A stretch of DNA of 64,000 bases from an uncultured bacterium (lineage in GTDB: Bacteria; Acidobacteriota; Thermoanaerobaculia; Thermoanaerobaculales; Thermoanaerobaculaceae), in NCBI GenBank assembly GCA_937924755.1, contig CALEVZ010000013.1, positions 1 to 64,000 on the forward strand. Direction: 5' to 3'. Positions 16,669 through 21,833 of this stretch are shown here, piece after piece. Under the pieces are notes generated by a model. It was not told the DNA's origin, did no database searches, and was given only the letters and a program-made list of their open reading frames with translations. How positions within the stretch are numbered: the first letter of the stretch is position 1; each line of letters opens with the position of its first letter. The translations under genes were made by a program, and so were the position numbers.

Positions 16669-17505
16669 TCATCTCTCGGCCCGGGGGTCGCTCGCCTCTG
16701 CCCACCCCTTCCAGGCCACCCTGCTGACCGCCACCATGTCCGCCGACGTCGGGTGGCGCGGCTGCGCCAACAAGGCCGTGGTGGCTCCTTCTTCCACGAC
16801 CGATCCGCCGTCCAGGACAATCACCCTCTGACACAGACACGCCGCCAGTCCCAGGTCGTGGGTAATGACGACAAGTGCCACCCCCCTGCCCCGCCGCAGC
16901 GCCTCCAGCACGTTGACCACCTGGCCCCGCATCGAGGCATCGACAGAAGCGGTCGGTTCGTCGAGCACGAGCACCCGCGGATCACACGCCAGGGCGCGTG
17001 CCAGCGCCACCCGCTGGCGCTCACCGCCCGAGAGGTCCCGGGGCAGCCGCAGCGCTAGCTCTCGCGAGCGCGGCAAACCCACCAGCTCCAGCAGCTCCTC
17101 CATCCGCCGCGCCAACTCCCGACGGGGAACCCGGCGAATCACCAGTGGTTCCGCCACCGCAGCCCCCACCCGTTGCCGCGGATCGAGAGCCTGGCCGGGA
17201 TCCTGAAAGACCAGTTGAACCGTTTGCCGGAGCGCCCTGAGGGCGCTTTCGGGGCCAGGGTTCAAGGCCACCCCGCCCACCGTGACGGTACCGGCATCCG
17301 GCGGCTCGACCCCGGCCAGCACGCGGGCGAGGGTGCTCTTTCCGGCGCCCGACGGCCCCACCACCGCCACCGACTCGCCCGCATTGACCTGCAGCGACAC
17401 CCCGCGAAGGGCGCAAACGCTCCCCTTCCGTCGCTGCCACACTCCGCCGCGGGCCGCATAGCGCCGCCTGATCCCTTCTGCGGCGAGCACCACTTCACTG
17501 GCCAC
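16669..17505 (-). CDS. Peptide/nickel-type ABC transporter ATPase (DppF/OppF-like)
   Basis: A 278-residue ATPase with Walker A GPSGAGKS (50-57), VFQDPGQALDPRQRV, signature LSGGERQRVALARAL and Walker B VLVLDEPTASVD. The VFQDPxxALDPR segment is typical of the second ATPase of oligopeptide/dipeptide importers. I start at GTG 17505, preceded by GGAGAGG; an ATG at 17526 has no ribosome site. It overlaps the end of the partner ATPase gene by 11 nt. No permease or binding protein lies nearby, so the membrane part must be encoded elsewhere or the pair serves another system. Confidence 0.85.
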   Translation of the reverse strand: MASEVVLAAEGIRRRYAARGGVWQRRKGSVCALRGVSLQVNAGESVAVVGPSGAGKSTLARVLAGVEPPDAGTVTVGGVALNPGPESALRALRQTVQLVFQDPGQALDPRQRVGAAVAEPLVIRRVPRRELARRMEELLELVGLPRSRELALRLPRDLSGGERQRVALARALACDPRVLVLDEPTASVDASMRGQVVNVLEALRRGRGVALVVITHDLGLAACLCQRVIVLDGGSVVEEGATTALLAQPRHPTSADMVAVSRVAWKGWAEASDPRAER

Positions 17506-18499
17506 CGGGGCCCTCTCCGTCGGCATGGAGAAAGCAGCGCACCCGCCGCCCCGGCGTGACCTCCACCAAGGCCGGATGGGCCATGCTGCATCTGGGCAGG
17601 TCCTGGTCGCAGCGTTCCACGAATCGGCATCGGCGGCCCCACTCGGCCGGCGCCGGGACCTCGCCGGGGATGGTGGCAAGGGGGACGCGGCTTCCATCTC
17701 CTTCGCTCCTCGGCAACAGCACGGCACAGCGCAGCAAGGCCTGGGTGTAGGGATGGAGTGGACTCGCCAACACCTGAGCAGTGTCGCCAGACTCCACCGT
17801 CTCGCCGGCGTACATCACGACCACCCGCTGTGTCGCCAGGGCAGCCAGGGTGAAGTCGTGGGTGATCACCAACATGGCCAGCCCCCGCTCGCACTGCACC
17901 CGACCGAAGAGTTCCAGCAGTCGCTGCTTCGCCAACGGGTCCAACGCCGATGTCGGTTCATCGAGGACCAGCAGCCGCGGATCCCCGGACAGCGCCGCCG
18001 CCAGAAGGGCCCGCTGCCTCTGCCCTCCAGACAGCTGATGGGGGTAGGCGGCGGCGACAGCCTCGGCGTCCGCCAGTCCCACCTCCCGCAGCAGCTGCAC
18101 CGCCTTTCGGCGCGCCTCCTGGCGCTGCCATCGGTAGCGCAACACCCCGGCCTCTGCCACCTGCGTACCTATCCTCAGCAGCGGGTTCAGCGCCGAGGAT
18201 GGATCCTGAAAGACGTACCCCACTAGAGCGCCGCGCAGCTGCTGCAGCTCCTGCTCCGGCAGCGCTCGCACATCCTTGCCCGCCACTTCCACCCGACCGC
18301 CCACGATCCTTCCCGGTTCCGGAAGCAGATTGACCAGGGAAAGCGCCGTGAGCGTCTTGCCGCACCCCGATTCCCCCACCAGGGCGACGCTCTCACCCTC
18401 CGCCACCGCAAAGTTGGCGCCGCGCACCACTCGCACCACCTCACCGGTCCGACGAGGAAAACCCACCTCCAGTTCCTGAACGGCCGCGAGGAACGCCAC
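17495..18499 (-). CDS. Peptide/nickel-type ABC transporter ATPase (DppD/OppD-like)
   Basis: A 334-residue ATPase with Walker A GESGCGKT (42-49), VFQDPSSALNPLLRIG, signature [15 protein letters not shown], Walker B LLVLDEPTSALD, and the C-terminal oligopeptide-ABC extension (about 265-325) whose spaced cysteines (CRFVERC, CSMAHP, CF) bind an iron-sulfur or metal site in relatives. It starts at GTG 18499 with no Shine-Dalgarno sequence, but TAGAAT ends six bases before the start, so the mRNA is probably leaderless. It is first in a two-gene unit with the DppF-like gene. Confidence 0.87.
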   Translation of the reverse strand: MAFLAAVQELEVGFPRRTGEVVRVVRGANFAVAEGESVALVGESGCGKTLTALSLVNLLPEPGRIVGGRVEVAGKDVRALPEQELQQLRGALVGYVFQDPSSALNPLLRIGTQVAEAGVLRYRWQRQEARRKAVQLLREVGLADAEAVAAAYPHQLSGGQRQRALLAAALSGDPRLLVLDEPTSALDPLAKQRLLELFGRVQCERGLAMLVITHDFTLAALATQRVVVMYAGETVESGDTAQVLASPLHPYTQALLRCAVLLPRSEGDGSRVPLATIPGEVPAPAEWGRRCRFVERCDQDLPRCSMAHPALVEVTPGRRVRCFLHADGEGPGGQ

Positions 18500-18505
18500 G
18501 CCGGC

Positions 18506-18540
18506 ATTCTACACACCTCAGGTACCTGGTATGTTTTTTT
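18506..18540 (-). promoter_or_regulatory. Promoter of the peptide-ATPase pair with shared 12-mer
   Basis: On the minus strand, TAGAAT at 18511-18506 lies six bases before GTG 18499. Nine bases further upstream is ATACCAGGTACC, part of the larger dyad CAGGTACCTG, and beyond that an A8 tract that could act as an UP element. There is no TTGACA-like -35 box; the 12-mer sits where it would be. The same 12-mer occurs upstream of rtcB at 20357. Confidence 0.5.
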
Positions 18541-18853
18541 TACCATCTTCGGCGTATCCGGCGGTTCACTTTGACTCCTGATTGCCTCCAGCGGGGCCGA
18601 CGATCCACCACCGACGAAGAGAGGGCACTGAAGGGGAAAAAGACCGAGACTTTGTGTTCTCAGCGCATCGGTGGTGAAGAGCGGGGAGTTCGCGGGTTGA
18701 TAGCCGGGTATCGCCGCACCCCCCTTAAGGCCCATGGACCGGTGCCGGCCCTGCCCGGCCAATCGCCACGAGGACGAATCCGGGCTCCTCGCAAGGGTGA
18801 ACCAACCCCCCCATCACCAGACGCCGGGGCCGCTCGTGATGTTTTCGAAGCAG
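18541..18853. other. Intergenic stretch, nothing recognised
   Basis: About 310 nt between the peptide-ATPase promoter and the stop of the methyltransferase gene. Frames on both strands give Arg/Pro-rich peptides with no family resemblance and no ribosome sites. I see no tRNA, riboswitch core or strong terminator. Confidence 0.5.
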
Positions 18854-19477
18854 CTACTGGCGACGGGCCACGACGCGAACGACCCATTTGGGGCCCCGGT
18901 GGCGCGGGCTGTCGTCCCCGGACACCAGGCGGTCCTCGTACCAGACCACCCGCAGGGGCGGCGCCCCTCCGCCGGGGAAGGCGATCAACTCGATGAGTTC
19001 GTTGGGACGCCAAAGCAGGTTAGGATTCTGGGGGCCGCCCGAGGATCGCCCCAGCTGCTCCTGCGCAAACCCCTCCACCAGCAACGCCCCCCCTGGACGC
19101 AGCATCTTCGGGGCCGCCGCCACCAGCCCACGGGAGTGGTAGTTGACCACCAGGATGAGGTCCCAGTGGGCCGCGTCCGGGCGCAATGGCCAGTGGTTGG
19201 TGTCGGCCACCGCCAGCGCCAGGGAGCAGTACTCCTGCGCCGCCCGCCGCCGCGCCGTGGCCACCCCCGTCACCGCCACGTCCACCAGCGTCACCTGCCA
19301 CCCCCGGCTGGCCAGAAAGAGGGCGTTGCGCCCCTCACCCCCGGCGACGTCCAGACAGCGGCCCGGCGCGGGCAATAGCGGTAAGGCGCGGACCACGAAG
19401 GGCGATGGCTCCCGTCCGTAAAAGGGCTGCTCCACCGCCTGTTGATAGCGTTGCTCCCACTTGACTCGCTCGTCCAC
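18854..19477 (-). CDS. Class I SAM-dependent methyltransferase (TehB-like)
   Basis: A 207-residue Rossmann methyltransferase. Motif I is CLDVAGGEGRNALFLA (41-56), followed by the acidic end of strand 2 (VTLVDVA), DLILVVNYHSRGL for motif IV and a PGGALLVEGF motif. It resembles the TehB/UbiE-like small-molecule group (for example tellurite, thiol or thiopurine methyltransferases), but the substrate is not readable. The start is GTG 19477 with GGAGG five bases upstream; a GTG two codons earlier overlaps that site. It is divergent from kdsC and single. Confidence 0.8.
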   Translation of the reverse strand: MDERVKWEQRYQQAVEQPFYGREPSPFVVRALPLLPAPGRCLDVAGGEGRNALFLASRGWQVTLVDVAVTGVATARRRAAQEYCSLALAVADTNHWPLRPDAAHWDLILVVNYHSRGLVAAAPKMLRPGGALLVEGFAQEQLGRSSGGPQNPNLLWRPNELIELIAFPGGGAPPLRVVWYEDRLVSGDDSPRHRGPKWVVRVVARRQ

Positions 19478-19560
19478 CGCCACCTCCCGCCCGACGATTA
19501 TCCCCGAGCGCTGGCCAGGACCTCTGGCGGGCGGCTACCATGACAGCGGGGGGTGGCGCC

Positions 19561-20151
19561 GTGAACGACGAGCTGCTGCAGCGGGCCAAACGCATCCGTG
19601 CCCTGGCGTTGGACGTGGACGGGGTGCTCACCGACGCCAGCCTTCACTACGGCCGCGGTGGCGAGGCCTTGAAGACGTTCTCGGCGCGGGATGGTTTCGG
19701 CATCAAGGCGGCACAGATGGAGGGCATCGCCATTGCCGTCCTGTCCGGCCGGGTGGCGCCGCCGTTGAAGGCTCGCCTGGCTGACCTCGGCATCCCCGAC
19801 CGCCTGGTCATCCAGGGCAGTCTGGACAAGGGACGGGACATCGCCACGCTGGCCCGGCGAGTGGATCTCACCTTGCCGGAGCTGGCCTTCCTGGGCGACG
19901 ACATCCCGGACCTCCCCGCCCTGGCGCTGGTGGGGCTGGCGGTGTGCCCGGCAGACGCGGCAGCGGAAGTTCGCAGTCGTTGCCACCTGGTCACCCGGGC
20001 GAAGGGGGGCCGGGGGGCGGTGCGTGAGGCCGTGGAGTTCATCCTCGCCGCTCAGGGGCGCTGGGAGGCTCTGGTGCACCGCTGGGCGGCAGGGGAGGTG
20101 CCGGAGAGCTTCGGCGCCGCCGCCCGCGACTGCCACGCCGGCGACGACTGA
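19561..20151 (+). CDS. kdsC: 3-deoxy-D-manno-octulosonate 8-phosphate phosphatase
   Basis: A 196-residue HAD-superfamily phosphatase that removes phosphate from KDO-8-P in lipopolysaccharide core synthesis. It has the class C0 HAD signature LDVDGVLTD (nucleophile Asp18, general acid Asp20), the short GRGGEALKTFSARDGFGIK segment characteristic of KdsC, then VLSGR and FLGDDIPDLP. KdsC forms a tetramer in the cytoplasm. GTG 19561 is preceded by GGGGGGTG and gives the usual N-terminus; an ATG at 19540 would add seven unlikely residues. In many relatives kdsC sits beside lptC; here it lies about 22 kb away from lptCA. Confidence 0.88.
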   Translation: MNDELLQRAKRIRALALDVDGVLTDASLHYGRGGEALKTFSARDGFGIKAAQMEGIAIAVLSGRVAPPLKARLADLGIPDRLVIQGSLDKGRDIATLARRVDLTLPELAFLGDDIPDLPALALVGLAVCPADAAAEVRSRCHLVTRAKGGRGAVREAVEFILAAQGRWEALVHRWAAGEVPESFGAAARDCHAGDD

Positions 20152-20356
20152 GTGGGGAGGAAAGGGGCGTCCTTCACCCCCCTGGGAACTGGCCGTTAAA
20201 CTCACCGGCCTCTGCCGCCGCAGCGATTTGCCGACCCACCGCGCGCAGACGAGGGATAGGGCCGGAGACCGTCACAGCCTGAGCGAGGCGAGCTTTACCA
20301 GGGAGGATGGTGACAGCCCGCGACTGCGAAGATCCACCGAAAAAGGAAAGAAGGCT
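20152..20356. other. Intergenic region between kdsC and rtcB
   Basis: About 205 nt. GGGG-CGTCCTTCA-CCCC near 20164 and GGCC-GTTAAACTCACC-GGCC near 20191-20210 could form weak hairpins that end the kdsC transcript; neither is followed by a T run. A tandem GTCACAGCC / GTGACAGCC pair is present at 20271-20317, but I cannot match it to a riboswitch. A minus-strand frame here (20174-20470) shows no family features. Confidence 0.35.
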
Positions 20357-20384
20357 ATACCAGGTACCCAGCGTTCGGTATACT
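20357..20384 (+). promoter_or_regulatory. rtcB promoter with ATACCAGGTACC motif and TATACT
   Basis: TATACT (20379-20384) ends six bases before the rtcB ATG at 20391, the spacing expected for a leaderless transcript. ATACCAGGTACC lies at 20357-20368, ten bases upstream of the -10 box, with an A/G-rich tract before it. This is the same arrangement as at the peptide-ATPase promoter (18506-18540). Confidence 0.5.
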
Positions 20385-20390
20385 GATGAT

Positions 20391-21833
20391 ATGGGAATGC
20401 GAGCGCACCGACGGCGCCCCGGCGTATGGGAGGTGGAGCCGCAGGGGGGGATGCGGGTGCCGGCGCGCATCTACGCCTCCGACGCCCTGATGGAGCAGAT
20501 ACGCGGCGACGAGTCGCTGGAGCAGGCGTGCAACGTCGCGCACCTGCCCGGCATCGTGACCGCTTCTCTAGCCATGCCTGACATGCACGAGGGCTATGGC
20601 TTCCCCATCGGCGGGGTAGCGGCCTTCACCCTGGACGAGGGAATCGTCTCCCCCGGCGGCGTGGGGTACGACATCAACTGCGGCGTCCGCCTGATGCGCA
20701 CCGACCTGCGCGCGTCCGAGCTGGGGGAGCGCCTCACCCGGCTGGTGCATCAGCTACAGCGCGACATCCCCGCCGGCGTGGGCAGCGAGGGGGCGATCAA
20801 GAAGCTCAGTGACAAAGAGCTCTCCGAGGTGCTGCGGCGCGGCGCGGCGTGGCCGGTGGAGCAGGGCTGGGGCGAGCCGGAGGACCTGCTGACCACCGAG
20901 GCGGAGGGCTGCCTGCCCGGCGCCGATCCCGACGCCGTCTCCCCCCGCGCCAGGGAGCGCGGCGCCCCGCAACTGGGGACCCTGGGCTCGGGCAACCACT
21001 TCGCCGAGGTTCAGGTCGTCGATGAGGTGCTCTTTCCCGAGGCGGCGACCGCCTTCGGCTTGGCGGAAGGGCTGGTGACGGTGCTGTTGCACTCCGGCTC
21101 ACGGGGGCTGGGCTACCAGGTGTGCGACGACGCCTTGGCCACCATGGCCAAGGCTGCTGCCCGTTACGGCCTCCAGTTGCCCGACCGCCAGCTGGTCTCG
21201 GTGCCGGTGAGCTCCCGGGAGGGGGCCCGCTACCTGGCGGCCATGCGCGCCGCCGCCAACTTCGCCTGGGCCAATCGCCAGGTGATGATGGCTCTGATCG
21301 AGCAAGCCTTCATCCGGGTGCTGGGGGGCAACCGGCGCACCCTGGGTTTCCAGCTGGTGTACGACGTCGCCCACAACATCGCCAAGGTGGAAGAGCATCT
21401 GGTGGACGGGCGCCCGACGCAGGTGCTGGTGCACCGCAAGGGCGCCACCCGCGCCTTTTCCGCCGGCCACCCCGAGGTGCCCGCGGCGTACCGGCACGTG
21501 GGGCAGCCGGTGCTGATCCCCGGCGACATGGGGCGTGCCTCCTTCGTGTGCGTGGGCACTCCGCGGGCGATGGACGAAACTTTCGGTACCGCCGCCCATG
21601 GCGCCGGCCGCACCCTGTCCCGCACCGCGGCCCGCAAGGTGGGAGGCAACCGCAACATCGCCAAGGAGCTGGAGGCGAAGGGCATCGTCGTGGCGGCCCG
21701 CTCCCGCAAGACGTTGGCGGAGGAGATGCCCGAGGCCTACAAGGACGCCTCCCAGGTGGTGGCAGCCCTGGAGGAGGCGGGCATCGCGCGGGTGGTGGCA
21801 CGGCTGCGCCCCCTGGGGGTGGTCAAGGGGTAG
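20391..21833 (+). CDS. rtcB: RNA-splicing ligase RtcB
   Basis: A 480-residue GTP- and Mn-dependent ligase that joins RNA 2',3'-cyclic phosphate or 3'-phosphate ends to 5'-OH ends, used in tRNA repair. All hallmark blocks are present in order: MPDMHEGYGFPIGG (62-75), SPGGVGYDINCGVRL with metal ligands Asp94 and Cys97, GTLGSGNHFAEVQ, LHSGSRGLG, YDVAHNIAK, HRKGATRAF, PGDMGRASFVCVG and HGAGRTLSR. There is no Shine-Dalgarno before ATG 20391 (or before ATG 20397), but a -10 box six bases upstream. No archease gene is in view. It is monocistronic and converges on addA, with a three-base gap. Confidence 0.95.
   Translation: MGMRAHRRRPGVWEVEPQGGMRVPARIYASDALMEQIRGDESLEQACNVAHLPGIVTASLAMPDMHEGYGFPIGGVAAFTLDEGIVSPGGVGYDINCGVRLMRTDLRASELGERLTRLVHQLQRDIPAGVGSEGAIKKLSDKELSEVLRRGAAWPVEQGWGEPEDLLTTEAEGCLPGADPDAVSPRARERGAPQLGTLGSGNHFAEVQVVDEVLFPEAATAFGLAEGLVTVLLHSGSRGLGYQVCDDALATMAKAAARYGLQLPDRQLVSVPVSSREGARYLAAMRAAANFAWANRQVMMALIEQAFIRVLGGNRRTLGFQLVYDVAHNIAKVEEHLVDGRPTQVLVHRKGATRAFSAGHPEVPAAYRHVGQPVLIPGDMGRASFVCVGTPRAMDETFGTAAHGAGRTLSRTAARKVGGNRNIAKELEAKGIVVAARSRKTLAEEMPEAYKDASQVVAALEEAGIARVVARLRPLGVVKG

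Follow-up and report, generated by a model that had tools for sequence, protein, structure and literature searches.

Y1 transposase genes lying between inverted repeats at a steady distance have been described as TIRYTs; in the accessible text of PMC3733652, one TIRYT group belongs to Acidobacteria, some TIRs belong to dispersed families of moderate abundance, and some TIRs, not all, share the sequence GGGGWSAS. Long TnpAY1 proteins with a C-terminal HTH like Bac_DnaA_C, HTH_23 or HTH_28 constitute TnpAY1 subclass 2.1 in PMC6006769, and the accessible part of that survey reports the surroundings of these genes to be free of REP-like sequences. As in TIRYTs so described, the element analysed here has a Y1 transposase gene between inverted repeats at a steady distance, and as in the REP/REPIN-RAYT systems (REPtrons) portrayed in the available portions of PMC8266576 and PMC3116915, a RAYT gene stands at its own repeats, with non-autonomous copies between genes and inverted pairs in relatives. 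Within the published descriptions that are accessible, the RAYT fits both TnpAY1 subclass 2.1 (PMC6006769) and TIRYTs (PMC3733652). Unlike the subclass 2.1 genes in the accessible survey text, it has flanking repeats that are dispersed genome-wide, and in place of the GGGGWSAS given for TIRYTs in the same portion of PMC3733652, the core here is (A/G)TACCNGGTACC with an A-rich leader. No published account of the present element was found in the literature searched, most subscription papers lying outside its scope; we regard it as a known kind of repeat in an unusual place, with a hint of promoter targeting or co-option.

In the window (the whole 64-kb stretch of DNA that was analysed), an earlier note had pointed to an identical 12-mer in two promoters. 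The 12-mer, ATACCAGGTACC, does occur there exactly twice, upstream of an oppD/dppD-like gene and of rtcB (Table 1); the position given for copy 2 was right, whereas that given for copy 1 (18528-18517) was 4 nt off. We consider it very probable that this sequence forms the core of a dispersed repeat of ~32 bp, (G)AAAAAnGnnAAAAAGGCT-ATACCAGGTACC, of a TIRYT-kind RAYT, set before two promoters older than itself, a reading carried by the repeat family, its position at RAYT gene ends across the bacterial family, its absence from the relatives' promoters and the fact that the -10 boxes are conserved where it is missing. Several other details of the earlier note held up: A-rich tracts precede both copies, a dyad, CAGGTACCTG, is present at 18519-18528, and the spacing to the -10 box is 9 nt at copy 1 (TAGAAT, followed by the start codon GTG at 18499-18497) and 10 nt at copy 2 (TATACT, followed by ATG at 20391), with a gap of 6 nt between -10 box and start codon at both genes. 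In the gene set at 17495-21833, whose order recurs in relatives, -10 boxes stand immediately before start codons, which suggests leaderless transcripts.

Table 1. Positions of the two repeat copies, the adjoining promoter elements and the neighbouring genes in the window
Feature	Position	Strand	Basis
Core 12-mer ATACCAGGTACC, copy 1	18521..18532	-	Exact genome copy; model R1 score 26.6 bits
Core 12-mer ATACCAGGTACC, copy 2	20357..20368	+	Exact genome copy
A-rich leader, copy 1	18533..18554	-	25-copy alignment; weak fit to genome consensus
A-rich leader, copy 2, CACCGAAAAAGGAAAGAAGGCT	20335..20356	+	25-copy alignment; model R1 score 39.1 bits
-10 box TAGAAT, oppD/dppD-like gene	18506..18511	-	Ancestral; hexamer at equivalent place in 14/14 relatives' loci
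-10 box TATACT of rtcB	20379..20384	+	Ancestral; TATANT at equivalent place in 9/9 distinct relatives' loci
Oligopeptide/dipeptide ABC transporter ATP-binding protein (OppD/DppD-like)	17495..18499	-	Pfam ABC_tran + oligo_HPY
Methyltransferase gene, upstream of oppD	18854..19483	-	Pfam; homologue adjoins oppD in several relatives
HAD phosphatase	19540..20151	+	Pfam; neighbours oppD and rtcB in relatives as well
rtcB	20391..21833	+	Pfam RtcB, 566 bits

RtcB places the organism close to Thermoanaerobaculaceae (Acidobacteriota), its best match being 78% identical, and the same promoters were read in relatives from outside the genus. Upstream of oppD, none of the 14 relatives' loci read (a tally that leaves out a weaker second match in G008, L324) contains the motif within three mismatches, and each has TAGAAT, TACAAT or TAAAAT shortly before the gene. 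Lack of conservation upstream of rtcB was the outcome that the earlier note had named as refuting its reading; the motif is indeed absent from all nine distinct loci read (12 rows, L051, L053 and L054 duplicating L311, L316 and L318), one of which shows a 3-mismatch resemblance, and TATANT precedes the start in all nine. The TGS-domain GTPase (L022) presents a similar picture, with a -10-like box, and by eye no motif, in the 12 relatives' loci that have a readable start (16 rows, minus L289-L291, whose start could not be read, and the own genome), while at RmuC, another gene behind a promoter copy, relatives are only about 30% identical. The -10 boxes at oppD and rtcB thus look real, as had been supposed, and since they are conserved without the motif, the promoters are older than the repeat. 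Judged by sequence comparison, the element is a lineage-specific repeat beside pre-existing promoters, neither an ancestral operator nor a -35 box. In three other genomes (L285, L282 and L281), different tandem repeats, GGACCAC or GGACCCC, are expanded immediately before the conserved TGS GTPase -10 box, as though repeats were tolerated at, or drawn to, the stretch adjoining -10 boxes on their upstream side in this clade.

In the relatives, too, oppD is followed by the methyltransferase gene (in several), the HAD phosphatase and rtcB, and the functional link between RNA repair and a peptide transporter that the two sites had seemed to offer is therefore old gene order. In G010 the methyltransferase gene abuts oppD, its last three letters being the TAG with which the oppD box TAGAAT begins, compared with about 339 bp between the methyltransferase stop and the oppD -10 box here; sequence thus appears to have been gained in the present lineage, with the motif at its oppD-side end.

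The 3.35-Mb genome (G000, 86 contigs) contains 25 exact copies of ATACCAGGTACC, of which 12 are in forward and 13 in reverse orientation, compared with 0.16 expected from base composition and none for the reversed sequence as a control. A chance origin, already doubted when only the two window copies were known, is ruled out. The 23 further copies, which the earlier note had not noticed, agree with those two in what precedes the core: in all 25 this is an A-rich leader (consensus AAAAAnGnnAAAAAGGCT) whose two A-tracts are spaced by ~10 bp. A 44-nt sequence model gave 33 matches at E up to 10, of which 32, the 25 exact and 7 diverged copies, lie at E < 0.02. Between copies the core is exact and the leader agrees loosely, and diverged copies are few (about seven), a pattern that looks more like a site under selection than fresh copies of one master; the scarcity of damaged cores would likewise fit selection. 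A short core with phased A-tracts about 10 bp apart, in nearly equal numbers of both orientations and mostly between genes, also recalls an uptake-sequence-like signal, for which the uptake sequences of Haemophilus are the comparison case. That reading is highly improbable in our view, as there are some 32 copies only and the fixed position of the repeat at both ends of the RAYT gene in relatives would be left unaccounted for.

The search of the genome for copies near start codons, as the earlier note had proposed, bore out its promoter reading in part: 15/25 copies face a same-strand gene start within about 130 bp, but six lie close to the 3' terminus of an opposed gene and face into it (L003, L010, L016, L018, L019 and L020) and four fall in neither class, where gene calls come from our own codon-usage script trained on the window rather than from curated annotation. 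Such a distribution does not fit an operator alone. At L010, L016 and L019, where the motif occupies 1501-1512, the three predicted genes have ...YLV as their C-terminus and take their TAG stop from the reverse strand of the motif (GGTACCTGGTATAG), as though the repeat had trimmed or lengthened their C-termini. An Rfam E-value scan of 17/25 loci returned tRNAs and sub-threshold matches only, and a riboswitch or other known RNA was set aside. The two window copies form no stable hairpin relative to shuffled sequences (z 1.09 and -0.72), and a hairpin element was rejected for them. Unlike the REPtrons in the accessible parts of PMC8266576 and PMC3116915, these copies have neither a GT[AG]G foot nor a stable hairpin, and because the consensus has no 5' foot and the copies no palindromic fold, the term REP in its strict sense is inapplicable to them. 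One GTACC-type copy of a relative does fold (L243, z -2.93). Some copies in relatives are trailed by a local tandem array whose units are GGTACC with 3-5 further, locus-specific bases (GATC, TATC, GATG etc.), as at L202 3775-3870, L189 about 2184 (minus), L242 967 and L036 1500-1560.

The gene to which the motif is linked in other genomes is a RAYT. In genomes of the same family the 13-mer (one mismatch allowed) occurs in inverted pairs about 1.07 kb apart, many of which enclose a RAYT gene, while some flank other genes or short gaps. When flanks were scored for outward-facing TACCNGGTACC with at most 1 mismatch, copies stood on both sides, as in TIRYTs/TIRtrons, in 17 of 24 RAYT ORFs (own genome included), on one side in 2 and on neither in 5; the corresponding numbers for the 20 ORFs found via Pfam alone, independently of the motif, are 13, 2 and 5. 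Random 100-bp stretches of the same loci contain a match in 461/9600 cases. The flanking copies lie 47-65 bp before the RAYT start and, with one exception at 35 bp, 8-15 bp after the stop. In the own genome, the only Y1_Tnp match is the RAYT (NCBIfam REP_Tyr_transpos, 81.9 bits, cut-off 80), a tamed (domesticated) transposase gene, whose start is preceded at 55 bp by an outward-facing copy, matching the distance and orientation seen in relatives; beyond its stop there is no intact copy, a degenerate GGTACC alone. Pfam gave 45 matches, and the 24 ORFs scored include L188, L189, L190 and L196, chosen for their motif pairs; L224 (a fragment), L230 (at a contig edge), L220 (a false ORF) and L187 (identical with L226) were left out, and the scoring script missed L213, L216, L217, L221, L231, L232 and L233.

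By eye, L217 has one degenerate copy and L233 has GGTACC fragments, and L221 and L231 are flanked on both sides by CTGACCCC repeats, i.e. GGGGTCAG, which correspond to the GGGGWSAS type of TIR published in the accessible text of PMC3733652, within the same bacterial family. Three of the RAYTs scored as having no copy (L205, L206 and L218) have other flanking repeats by eye, ending in GGTACC or GGCACC. Core type (ATACC, GTACC or GGACC) differs by RAYT clade and clusters on the RAYT tree (6 changes vs a shuffled mean of 12.4), with an imperfect match, as the own RAYT (ATACC) groups with one of GTACC type. Between the 79 proteins predicted beside 30 motif copies of this genome and 136 loci of other genomes, the shared neighbour genes were the RAYT, broad families (ABC ATPases, kinases) and one L007 gene matching L251 (49%), which argues against a regulon; part of the 136 loci was chosen for holding a RAYT, which inflates the count of RAYT matches and leaves the scarcity of other shared genes unaffected. 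A 23-residue match (78%) to the RAYT N-terminus at G000:C71:2939-3007 (L275), with no exact motif adjoining, is likely a remnant of a second RAYT, to judge from its sequence.

H60, H62 and Y119 are invariant across 17 aligned RAYT proteins, and we take them, from the known motif, to be the HUH motif and the catalytic tyrosine. Together with a Y1_Tnp match over the Pfam cut-off and the NCBIfam equivalog over its own, they identify the protein as a RAYT/TnpA_REP. Its structure model (mean pLDDT 84.8, pTM 0.61) has as its best PDB fold match 4er8, a RAYT bound to a REP hairpin, while the C-terminal tail resembles the box-bound DNA-binding domain of M. tuberculosis DnaA (3pvp; rmsd 1.7 over 93 columns, target TM 0.85); in Pfam, the HTH and Bac_DnaA_C matches of the tail are weak and below curated cut-offs. 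As modelled, the RAYT is an HUH/Y1 nuclease of TIRYT kind with a DnaA-domain-IV-like C-terminal DNA-binding domain, and through this predicted fold match it would have the HTH/Bac_DnaA_C-like C-terminus of TnpAY1 subclass 2.1 as given in the available text of PMC6006769.

Copies precede -10-like hexamers at short range more often than background placements do, as the earlier note's promoter reading would have it, and they are not confined to promoters. A TAnnnT hexamer starts 8-15 nt after the core in 9/25 copies, compared with 21/600 when these distances were applied to 40 gene starts without the motif (binomial tail about 1e-7); the interval was picked post hoc, the full 60-nt profile containing 13 hexamers, 10 of them at 8-15 nt, in 9 sites. 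Two of five diverged copies have such a hexamer. Only 4/91 copies in relatives lie upstream of one (Fisher p 1e-4 vs the 9/25 here), a set that includes RAYT flanks, samples genomes unevenly and has its palindromic GTACC copies oriented by A content. That about one third of copies precede -10-like hexamers might be expected of a -35 element of an alternative sigma factor, but the register ranges over 8-15 nt, many copies have no promoter-like hexamer, and the hexamers of oppD and rtcB are ordinary sigma-70-like ones, conserved without the motif; we give this proposal of the earlier note practically no credence.

The same enrichment, in exact and diverged copies alike, and the exact core with its loose leader, which resembles a binding site, would suit a transcription-factor operator serving a regulon of oppD, rtcB and others, as would three promoter copies (L006, L008 and L025) that precede genes of peptide uptake or breakdown, namely SBP_bac_5, the OppD/DppD ATPase and Peptidase_C69. 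The genes behind the promoter copies are nonetheless mixed (10 proteins), the others, including RmuC, HlyIII, the TGS GTPase, an epimerase and CNNM, being unrelated, and a shared regulon was rejected. Since the motif is missing at oppD, rtcB and the TGS GTPase in all relatives read, faces opposed 3' ends in six cases and tracks the transposase gene in other genomes, the activator site first proposed is an improbable explanation.

Under the preferred reading, a TIRYT-kind repeat placed before older promoters, the RAYT would recognise the element and have spread its copies, the HUH domain processing the leader as a single strand and the core perhaps serving the DnaA-like domain as a double-stranded box; both window copies would have arrived in the present lineage, coming to lie where promoters already there begin on their upstream side. 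Nine of 25 copies at promoters is more than would be expected of a mobile repeat free of targeting or selection, and this distribution may mean either that the element inserts by preference at the upstream margin of promoters or that copies are retained there, their A-tracts and core replacing the UP element and -35 region. The A-tracts of the window copies presumably fall about at UP-element positions, and with the core over the -35 region an effect on transcription of oppD and rtcB is plausible. Coupled with the DnaA-domain-IV-like tail, the enrichment makes promoter targeting or co-option possible. A bolder proposal, in which the 12-bp duplex box and phased A-tracts of a domesticated HUH transposase, itself equipped with a DnaA-like domain, serve to mark promoters, we consider speculative and rather unlikely. 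It would involve preferential insertion at the promoter's upstream edge (melted or supercoiled DNA) or, alternatively, retention of the element as a substitute for UP element and -35 at about 1/3 of copies, and would amount to a transposase-derived promoter module in one lineage, perhaps bound by the RAYT.

The target of the subclass 2.1 C-terminal HTH was left open in the accessible text of PMC6006769, and the dispersed box at the RAYT gene ends is a candidate; it differs between RAYT clades, and the DnaA-DBD-like tail is the partner against which it could be tested. The two window loci also illustrate that a repeat can mimic a promoter element, the -10 boxes predating it. If the promoter enrichment does reflect targeting, it would bear on site choice by single-strand transposases.
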